This document shows positions 32,855 through 35,172 of a DNA stretch of 48,484 nt, in pieces. Within the stretch, counting starts at the first letter, position 1. Every line of letters begins with the position of its first letter. Source of the stretch: Clostridia bacterium (GTDB lineage Bacteria; Bacillota; Clostridia; Christensenellales; Borkfalkiaceae); contig JAFVWA010000183.1 in assembly GCA_017501885.1 (NCBI GenBank), forward strand, positions 1-48,484, written 5' to 3'. The notes below the pieces were generated by a model, which had not been told where the DNA came from, searched no databases, and worked only from the letters and a program-made list of their open reading frames with translations. Position numbers and translations under genes: made by a program.

Positions 32855-34219
32855 CTATACCAAAATTGCGATTGAGATAGAACAGTAAATGATGAGTGAC
32901 AATGCGTCTACGATAGTAGTCATAACGGGGCTTGCAACAACCGCGGGGTCTAAGCGAACGAGTTTAACGAAAATGGGGAGCATGCAACCTACGAGTTTTG
33001 CAAGAACGATACTGATAAGACACACTGCAGAGATTACCAACGAAACGTCAACCGTTATGCTTGCATCGTAAAGTCTATCAAGAAGCATAAGCTTTCCAAA
33101 GCACACCACAGCAACGGTAAGTCCTACCGCCAACGAAACCAAAACTTCTTTTAAGATTACCCTAAAAAGGTCTTTGGGCTCGACTTCGCAAAGGGCGAGC
33201 GCACGAATTACCGTAACTGACGTTTGACCGCCTGCGTTACCTGCCGTTCCCATAAGCATGGGGACGAACGCGTATAGCACGGGGGATAGCCTGCTTTCGT
33301 AACCGGCGAGAATAATGCTTGTAAAGGTTGACGTAAGCATTAACATAATAAGCCACGGAATACGCGATTTCCAAATACTGAAAACCGACTGTTTTAGATA
33401 TGGCTTTTCGCTTGGCAAGATAGCCGCCATTTTTTGGATATCTTCGGTCGCTTCTTCTTGAATAACGTCTACCGCGTCGTCGACTGTAACTATACCAACG
33501 ATACAACCCTCGTGGTCGATAACGGGAAGGGCAATAAAGTCGTATTTAGAAAACTTTAACGCCACTTCTTCCTTGTCTTCTAAGGTATCAACGGTGATGA
33601 CGCTTGGGTCCATAACGTTTTCTATAAGTTCGTCTTTGTCAGCAAAGAGTAAATCGCGAACGGTAACAACGCCGATTAAGTGCTTTTTAGAGTCGGTAAC
33701 GTAGCAAGTGTAAATAGTTTCTTTGTTTTGTCCCGTTCTTGAAATCTTATCAAACGCTTCCTTAACCGTGCTTTTTGCAGAGAACGAAGTGTATTCGGTG
33801 GTCATTATCGAGCCTGCCGAATAGTCGGGGTATTTAAGAAGTTCGTTTATTTGTTTTCTATCTTCGGGGGCAGAGTTTTTAAGTATTCTTTTAACCACGT
33901 TTGCGGGCATTTCTTCAATGATGTCAACCGTATCGTCTAAGAACATATCGTCAATAATGGCTTTAAGTTCTTTATCGGTAAACGCTTTAATCAAAAGTTC
34001 TTGAGTGTCCGAATCAAATTCAACGAAAACGTCAGACGCGAGTTCTTTTGGAAGCAAACGGAAAAACACCACTTGCGCCTTTTCGTCAAGGTTGTCTTCT
34101 ATGAACTGGGCTATGTCGAAAGGCTCCATATCAAGAAGCGCCATTCTTAAATCGGCAAACTTTCTGTTTTCAAAAGAATATAAAAGTTTTTCATAAAGCA
34201 TTTCTAATTCTTCGTTCAT
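32855..34219 (-). CDS. mgtE: Magnesium transporter MgtE
   Basis: This 454-residue Mg2+-selective channel has an N-terminal helical superfamily domain (about 25-130), a CBS pair that senses cytosolic Mg2+ (about 135-255, 'TCYVTDSKKHLIGVVTVRDLL', 'PVIDHEGCIVGIVTVDDAVDVI') and five membrane helices (about 285-454) including 'PMLMGTAGNAGGQTSVTVIRALAL'. Length is standard. AGGGAGG lies before the ATG. Its mRNA begins with a leader of about 430 nt containing two hairpin repeats, an M-box riboswitch and an intrinsic terminator, so Mg2+ controls both transcription and channel gating. Confidence 0.97.
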   Translation of the reverse strand: MNEELEMLYEKLLYSFENRKFADLRMALLDMEPFDIAQFIEDNLDEKAQVVFFRLLPKELASDVFVEFDSDTQELLIKAFTDKELKAIIDDMFLDDTVDIIEEMPANVVKRILKNSAPEDRKQINELLKYPDYSAGSIMTTEYTSFSAKSTVKEAFDKISRTGQNKETIYTCYVTDSKKHLIGVVTVRDLLFADKDELIENVMDPSVITVDTLEDKEEVALKFSKYDFIALPVIDHEGCIVGIVTVDDAVDVIQEEATEDIQKMAAILPSEKPYLKQSVFSIWKSRIPWLIMLMLTSTFTSIILAGYESRLSPVLYAFVPMLMGTAGNAGGQTSVTVIRALALCEVEPKDLFRVILKEVLVSLAVGLTVAVVCFGKLMLLDRLYDASITVDVSLVISAVCLISIVLAKLVGCMLPIFVKLVRLDPAVVASPVMTTIVDALSLIIYCSISIAILV

Positions 34220-34250: not shown

Positions 34251-34276
34251 AAAAAACCCACCGAAAGTCCGGTGGG
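34251..34276 (-). terminator. Riboswitch-controlled terminator before mgtE
   Basis: On the minus strand CCCACCG/CGGTGGG (34257-34263, 34270-34276) is followed by six T residues (34256-34251), about 30 nt before the mgtE ribosome site. It should form when the M-box binds Mg2+. Confidence 0.9.
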
Positions 34277-34325
34277 AATAATAGCAACAAATCACGCCTT
34301 TTGGCGTGCAACGTGTAACCATACT

Positions 34326-34460
34326 GGCTTTAGCACCGTAGGGCAATGAAACTGCATTAAATCACGCCTTGTTTTCGACGTGGTTTGCTGACCTTCTCAT
34401 AGTGTCTCCACTACTTCGCGGCAGCAGTCCGTATCCCTATGGTAGCCTTACCCACTGGAA
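34326..34460 (-). promoter_or_regulatory. M-box (ykoK) magnesium riboswitch
   Basis: On the minus strand the conserved M-box words occur in order: GGTAAGGCTACC, GGGATAC, CTGCTGCC, then TTTAATGCAG and GTGCTAAAGCC, which closes the P1 region. The segment lies directly upstream of mgtE, the classical M-box target, and is followed by a second hairpin (CACGCC/GGCGTG, 34293-34308) and a terminator. Mg2+ binding is known to favour termination in this class. Confidence 0.93.
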
Positions 34461-34470
34461 TTTCGTCGAA

Positions 34471-34530
34471 GCACAACCATTTGTCATTATCCTGCTTGCG
34501 CACGATAATTGACTCTGCGGTTGGCTTCTC
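34471..34530 (-). repeat. Hairpin repeat, copy B, in the mgtE leader
   Basis: This is a 60-nt unit 56/60 identical to copy A at 34581-34640. In the transcript it folds as GTCA/TGAC, TTATC/GATAA and TGC/GCA capped by a GCAA (GNRA) tetraloop. The outer pairs CAACC/GGTTG and GAAGC/GCTTC continue into the flank. It ends about 10 nt before the M-box. Confidence 0.85.
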
Positions 34531-34580
34531 CTCTTCGCAAAAATTTCTTCGACAATTTTTGCGATATATTTTTTTAGGTA

Positions 34581-34640
34581 GCACAACCATTTGTCATTAT
34601 CCTGCTTGCGCACGATAATTGACTTTGTGGTCAGCTTCTC
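34581..34640 (-). repeat. Hairpin repeat, copy A, in the mgtE leader
   Basis: This 60-nt unit is the first in the transcript, exactly 110 nt from copy B. The 44 nt holding the inner hairpin are identical. The four differences lie in the outer 5' arm, where one position changes an A-U pair to G-U (CAACC to TGACC against GGTTG). A 10-bp hairpin CGCAAAAATT/AATTTTTGCG (34536-34563) separates the copies. Confidence 0.85.
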
Positions 34641-34652
34641 TATTCGTAAGAC

Positions 34653-34681
34653 AGTGTATACCTATCTTAACCGTTTGTCAA
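34653..34681 (-). promoter_or_regulatory. Promoter of the mgtE leader
   Basis: On the minus strand TTGACA (34676-34681) and TACACT (34653-34658) are 17 nt apart. Transcription would start near 34646 and include both repeats and the M-box. Confidence 0.6.
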
Positions 34682-34713: not shown

Positions 34714-35172
34714 TTAATCAGGGGTGTCTTCCCCGTCGATTTTAACGTTGTAAGATATTTTGGGGTTAATTTCTCGAACGGCTAAAATAAACTGTTCGTA
34801 AAACTCAGGGGCGATAACAACTATTATAAAATTTGTTTCACCAAAATAAGCGACCAGTTTGTTGCTCTTTTTAAAGTGGATAAGTTCAGTTAGTTCGCTA
34901 ACGTCAAACCTACTTTTAATAAACCCTAAGTAAGAATACACGCAACCGTTTTTAATAACGTATTTTCCGTAAACCATAATGCTTATGGAGAGCGAAAGCA
35001 AAACTAAGCACAATAGACACAGTATTGCACCCGAAACTACGCGTTTATCACTTATACCAGCATATTCTACTATGGTGAAAATATTCCAAACGAGTCCGCC
35101 AAGTGAAACGAGCGATATAACTGTCAACAATATCCAAACGGTAACCGAGTATTTGAATCTAAAAGTCTTCAT
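34714..35172 (-). CDS. Small membrane protein with a bacterial PH-like domain
   Basis: This 152-residue protein has two membrane helices (about 10-34 and 45-68) and then a beta-rich domain 'YVIKNGCVYSYLGFIKSRFDVSELTELIHFKKSNKLVAYF', which resembles the bPH/YdbS-type membrane-anchored PH-like fold. Function is unknown. There is no ribosome site before the ATG. A promoter ending 7 nt upstream would start the transcript at the ATG, so the mRNA may be leaderless. It is divergent from the aconitase-family gene. Confidence 0.7.
   Translation of the reverse strand: MKTFRFKYSVTVWILLTVISLVSLGGLVWNIFTIVEYAGISDKRVVSGAILCLLCLVLLSLSISIMVYGKYVIKNGCVYSYLGFIKSRFDVSELTELIHFKKSNKLVAYFGETNFIIVVIAPEFYEQFILAVREINPKISYNVKIDGEDTPD

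Follow-up and report, generated by a model that had tools for sequence, protein, structure and literature searches.

Several described systems combine short repeats, hairpins or integration sites in ways that invite comparison with the locus studied here. REP/REPIN repeats carry a conserved tetranucleotide foot and are served in trans by a RAYT transposase, and MITEs are marked by target-site duplication together with terminal inverted repeats. Tyrosine recombinases insert islands into tRNA genes, and the attC sites of integrons carry R boxes of the form RYYYAAC / GTTRRRY. We analysed a tandem array of hairpins in the leader of the Mg2+ transporter gene mgtE, located in a stretch of 48,484 nucleotides from a Clostridia bacterium (contig JAFVWA010000183.1), hereafter called the window. 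In our judgement the array is probably a locally duplicated copy of a small, mobile-like repeat of two hairpins, which is dispersed in the genus and more thinly in the order and the class.

On the minus strand the order of elements is promoter-like box, unit 1, 11-bp hairpin, unit 2, M-box, terminator-like hairpin and mgtE (Table 1), which bears out the initial annotation in placing the array between the promoter and the M-box of mgtE. The promoter call is weak alone, because a scan of 801 nt found five promoter-like sites where shuffles give 2.5; yet the same box precedes the M-box in relatives. Ahead of this promoter lies an ORF of 152 aa (window 34714-35172, minus strand) without Pfam match, and coding-looking DNA similar to it, as judged by eye, precedes the promoter in several relatives.

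Table 1. Elements of the mgtE locus and of the hairpin array, in window coordinates.
Feature	Position	Strand	Remarks
Promoter-like TTGACA-17-TACACT	34653..34681	(-)	ahead of array
Unit 1 (H2a)	34580..34640	(-)	61-nt hairpin with GCAA loop, no H1 ahead; partial R2 match, 28.1 bits
Complete module (unit 2 and middle hairpin, 107 nt)	34463..34569	(-)	109.2 bits with model R2, model positions 1-108
H1	34535..34564	(-)	11-bp hairpin, loop GUCGAAGA; conserved first hairpin of module
Linker AGAGGA	34529..34534	(-)	joins H1 to H2b
Unit 2	34470-34530	(-)	61 nt; most of its span inside H2b
H2b	34468..34528	(-)	P2a (5 bp), 1-nt bulge, P2b, internal loop, bulged P2c capped by GCAA loop
Tail GACGA	34463..34467	(-)	adjoins M-box here, RNA ends elsewhere
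M-box riboswitch aptamer (RF00380)	34311..34466	(-)	83.8 bits, gathering cut-off 44
Intrinsic-terminator-like hairpin, then T run	34257..34276	(-)	
mgtE, Mg2+ transporter gene	32855..34219	(-)	Pfam MgtE, MgtE_N, CBS

The two 61-nt units are spaced by 110 nt and agree at 57 of 61 positions; the earlier count of 56 of 60 is the same alignment minus one base, and the near-identity that it described is real. Each unit folds on the minus strand, which is that of the transcript, into the long GCAA-capped hairpin that had been proposed (-24.6 and -22.1 kcal/mol; z -5.62 and -4.74), and none of 200 shuffles folded as well in either case. The four differences between the units, at unit positions 8, 9, 13 and 16, are clustered within 9 of the 61 nucleotides, as happens in 0.6% of random draws, and the last 45 nt are unchanged, in keeping with the 44 invariant nucleotides around the inner hairpin that had been reported. 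Pairing is preserved in the outer stem as the initial annotation saw, but at three differences rather than the one that it counted (positions 8, 9 and 13: C-G/U-G, A-U/G-U and G-U/A-U), while position 16 falls in the internal loop; similarly, the perfect hairpin between the units is present but has 11 bp instead of 10. A scan of the array with Rfam 15 gave no family at gathering score, consistent with the earlier failure to match it to a known class, and the weak matches to MicA (17.1 and 16.7 bits against a cut-off of 41) lie on the other strand from the array. When the 400-nt leader is folded in silico, the hairpins of the array form independently, and a few bases at the extreme 5' end are predicted to pair with the terminator's U tail.

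M-boxes were detected in 39 of the 61 genomes searched. The distance from the end of the -10 box to the M-box is 8-16 nt in 28 of the 33 same-genus M-box loci with a recognisable promoter, the window included (L060 runs off its contig; where promoter candidates were tied, the TTGACA one adjoining the M-box was taken). The outlying distances are 24, 37, 52 and 276 nt, and 186 nt in the window, that is 15 nt plus the 171-nt array. This comparison of sequences argues that the array is an insertion and no ancestral part of the riboswitch leader. The leader of 276 nt (L042, genome G007) is filled by two tandem copies, 96% alike, of a 117-nt repeat that has relatives in 24 of the 44 genus genomes and seven matches in its own genome. 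It was considered as the same element and rejected, being a different repeat in a genome without any R2 match; leaders at the mgtE site have therefore taken up repeats more than once. H1-H2 modules also occur inside or beside what seems to be the same 117-nt repeat in three loci (L111, L142, L155).

The leader position and the two nearly identical hairpins had suggested a role of the array in the Mg2+ response, and they would fit a second sensor, for Mg2+ or another ligand, in tandem with the M-box. When the other 39 M-box loci were fetched and searched with model R2, the module was absent from all of them, and the M-box of the window is the sole riboswitch encountered at a module end; the relatives of the array are instead dispersed, with the ends of tRNA and tmRNA genes as the only recurrent neighbours found. 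Mg2+ sensing by the array is thus without support, and we regard a second sensor of any kind as very improbable.

The window module belongs to a dispersed family with the layout H1, linker, H2 and tail GACG. This membership escapes plain sequence search: blastn with the unit finds only its two copies in its own genome, and across the remaining 43 genomes of the genus nothing but short matches, the best at E 0.04, as expected if a species-specific hairpin without family had been duplicated in tandem by chance. That explanation is refuted by structure models, which recover a third copy in the same genome and a whole family beyond it, and it retains practically no probability. Model R1, built from the two 61-nt units alone, found the third copy on another contig (C124) with 52.4 bits, and in a blastn search with the whole array the similarity to C124 covers array positions 77-171 at 80%, the middle hairpin included. 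The middle-hairpin motif AATTGTCGAAGAAATT occurs exactly at six places of the genome and with at most one mismatch in 14 of the 44 genus genomes, some of these matches looking coding (L141, L146, L148, L151, L153, L157 and L159 were excluded by eye as such). The flanks of the copies share one layout, and model R2 was built from ten copies, the window copy among them. With strict filters and rough E-values, R2 has matches in at least 36 of 44 genomes of the genus (E<=0.1), at least 94 of 396 of the order (E<=0.01) and at least 41 of 291 of the class (E<=0.001), and also on one viral contig. The module measures about 105-120 nt.

For the counts of position given below, 240 modules from 197 loci plus the window were used, after the partial second R2 match of the window had been dropped from 241. 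One hundred extra loci were hand-picked, mostly from the top of the genus, order and class matches listed, with L348-L350 chosen for their inverted pairs. Eight of a set of 37 R2 matches were excluded from the tally: L210, L214 (twice) and L217 had been counted before, L229 and L231 nearly duplicate L228, and two matches, in L223 and L247, scored less than 25 bits. Searches of the phage and plasmid collections with the array gave no match, nor did the L223 module in the phage collection or the L263 module in the plasmid collection. A degenerate pattern of the inner hairpin, tried on genome contigs, gave three matches that were judged unrelated by eye, and it gave none on viral contigs. A literature search on titles and abstract openings brought up no work pointing to an H1-H2-GACG element; among the thousands of candidate motifs announced in PMC8040213, one could be this family.

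Covariation within the family is strong. Changes on both sides of a pair are found in 24 of 33 pairs among the ten sequences, as in none of 500 shuffles and against 9-13 when the pairing is slid; among 91 sequences they are found in 32 of 33 pairs, against 17-24 when slid, in an alignment that was fitted to the model and so leans to it. G-U accounts for 85 of 2748 standard-pair cells, and A-C was seen in 21 cells. H1 is conserved in sequence (an A tract against a T tract) and H2 mainly in shape, with conserved columns AGGA and GACG at the H2 feet. Kissing between the H1 loop and the tail was dropped as a candidate, the loop not being conserved outside the genus. The initial annotation had proposed a model search for homologues with compensatory changes near Mg2+ genes: the compensatory changes between relatives are there, but the relatives are scattered repeats unrelated to mgtE and do not recur at its riboswitch.

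The GACG end of the module has a strong but partial preference for the ends of structured RNA genes, which is no defining feature of the family. Of the 240 modules, 70 have the start of a tRNA or tRNA fragment no more than 6 nt from this end, and two have one as near to the opposite end; within 150 nt, a tRNA-like start is found for 94 modules at the GACG end versus 34 at the opposite end, and 146 modules have no tRNA-like sequence at this distance. Antisense modules mostly follow directly after CCA (CCA, then CGTC), and sense modules are placed at the 5' end of the mature RNA. When 80 loci holding a module without tRNA-like right flank were scanned with Rfam (cmscan), nine held a tmRNA, abutted by the module in seven of them, six times antisense at the 3' end and once (L260) sense at the 5' end. 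RNA-end adjacency thus amounts to 77 of the 239 modules outside the window (70 tRNA, 7 tmRNA); the window's own GACG end adjoins the M-box and no tRNA-like RNA end. Full-length RNA ends (tRNA, tmRNA and M-box) carry 39 antisense and 14 sense modules, RNA-fragment ends 15 and 10. No tRNA or tmRNA was found at the GACG end of 162 of the 240 modules, of which only part were scanned for other RNAs. The right flanks were also considered as generally structured in the 137 modules without tRNA, and this was rejected, since mean z is -1.51 on the right versus -2.19 on the left (-0.85 far right), so that there is no special signal on the right of the module.

Several of the tRNA fragments break off 19-21 nt from CCA, and cuts in the anticodon stem occur as well. 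In L163, L171 and L314 a fragment (37, 19 and 26 nt, respectively) is enclosed by a pair of modules with facing GACG ends. By eye, tRNA genes seem interrupted near the T loop in seven loci (L116, L144, L173, L178, L184, L261, L288) by structured inserts of about 60-90 nt, some of which end with the T arm copied in inverse orientation. With regard to CCA addition at the RNA level, 111 of the 113 distinct tRNA genes seen end in CCA.

From the likeness of copies within genomes we infer that the module is mobile-like. At least 85% identity is reached by 46 of 365 within-genome module pairs. In one genome (G035), three copies, each at the 3' end of a different tRNA gene (Leu, Val and Pro), share 88-94% identity; the flanks of the Leu and Val copies are no more alike than background (0.53 and 0.55, where background has a mean of 0.47 and a maximum of 0.65), and the Val and Pro copies have part of the left flank in common (0.72). 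A fourth copy of this genome (L266), 86-88% identical, is one module away from tmRNA. The copies of another genome (G025) are 98-100% identical, with left flanks partly in common. Copies with such partly common left flanks may therefore have spread as longer stretches of DNA or by recombination. The flanks inspected by eye showed no target-site duplication, and no transposase or other partner enzyme was found for the module; serine recombinase ORFs in seven loci were considered as a partner and judged coincidental, being of more than one kind by eye. The class-wide search also brought up inverted module pairs that share or touch their H1 ends (L242, L247, L348, L349, L350).

The 3' end of the module often adjoins the end of a structured RNA gene, in sense at the 5' end (tRNA, tmRNA, M-box) and antisense at the CCA end, and we propose that in this species one module was inserted between the promoter of mgtE and its M-box. 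H2 would then have been duplicated in cis, giving the order promoter, H2a, H1, H2b, M-box. The array is probably transcribed as a 5' leader. A simple terminator script predicts a terminator on the strand transcribed with the RNA gene for 23 of 39 antisense versus 0 of 14 sense modules, the window being among the 14; antisense modules could thus act as the terminator of the RNA gene, and sense modules could let transcription through. With no terminator predicted on its strand and with M-box and terminator intact, the array most likely has a passive effect on mgtE, as a structured 5' end and perhaps by some stabilisation of the RNA, rather than through Mg2+ sensing.

The same arrangement could instead be a general functional leader, in which H2a-H1-H2b binds a protein, stabilises the 5' end or serves in processing, and which selection keeps in some tRNA genes, a tmRNA gene and the mgtE mRNA. 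The layout promoter-H2a-H1-H2b-RNA does recur before tRNA-Glu(CTC), tRNA-Thr(CGT), tRNA-Gly(CCC) and tmRNA, and the tandem H2 of several sense leaders may reflect a function under selection. Among the modules at full-length RNA ends, to which this count was restricted, an upstream H2-like copy (score at least 50) is found in 7 of 14 sense versus 5 of 39 antisense modules (p 0.008 with orthologues counted), and with a score of at least 40 in 8 of 14 versus 6 of 39 (p 0.005). The strong covariation and the lack of predicted terminators in sense modules point the same way. However, the tandem count is inflated by orthologues (three tRNA-Glu, two tRNA-Thr), only some family members have the layout, antisense copies and copies away from RNA ends outnumber it, and nothing ties it to the expression of the gene behind, so that we consider a general leader unlikely, though not negligible. 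A bacterial SINE-like element, which would be a new class, is a doubtful reading of the movement itself. Reverse transcription would start at the GACG 3' end of the module RNA; priming by the 3'-OH of mature tRNA or tmRNA would place antisense copies right after CCA, and template switching at RNA 5' ends would place sense copies at mature 5' ends and near the start of the M-box transcript. The tRNA pieces that stop about 19-21 nt from CCA would be products of aborted tRNA copying (as in L171 between facing modules, with a longer piece in L163), and the mgtE leader would be an mRNA 5' end captured likewise. This purely geometric argument would account for both orientations, at a probability that we hold to be low; islands integrated in tRNA genes could leave such tRNA pieces as well.

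Under the reading that we prefer, a local duplication of a dispersed repeat, the locus presents a structured, class-wide repeat without Rfam entry that favours mature tRNA and tmRNA ends and stands here on a riboswitch mRNA. A hairpin that lies next to a riboswitch is not necessarily part of it, and uptake of such repeats would be one route by which leaders gain 5' domains. The family also offers a handle on a mobility mechanism in bacteria that is possibly directed to RNA ends.

Compared with the known systems, the M-box (ykoK leader, RF00380) lies intact directly downstream of the array in the same transcript; however, the array is no part of it, with no Rfam match over the array and no module at 39 other M-box loci. 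Integron attC sites differ in that the H2 feet are AGGA and GACG, which do not have the R-box form. Islands in tRNA genes resemble the family in the position of modules at tRNA 3' ends and in the tRNA 3' fragments, but a module has about 110 nt and no integrase within, and it also occurs in sense at tRNA 5' ends, at tmRNA and at the M-box. Like MITEs, modules are short, non-coding, present at many places and found as near-identical pairs within genomes, whereas a single module has no terminal inverted repeats (its ends are AGGGCTC and GACG), and inspection of flanks by eye showed no target-site duplication. REP/REPIN repeats resemble the family in form, since both are small dispersed hairpins with conserved short feet that occur as singles, tandems and inverted pairs; the family described here is set apart by two unlike hairpins in each unit, by an H2 kept in shape more than in sequence, and by a right end placed at tRNA and tmRNA ends.
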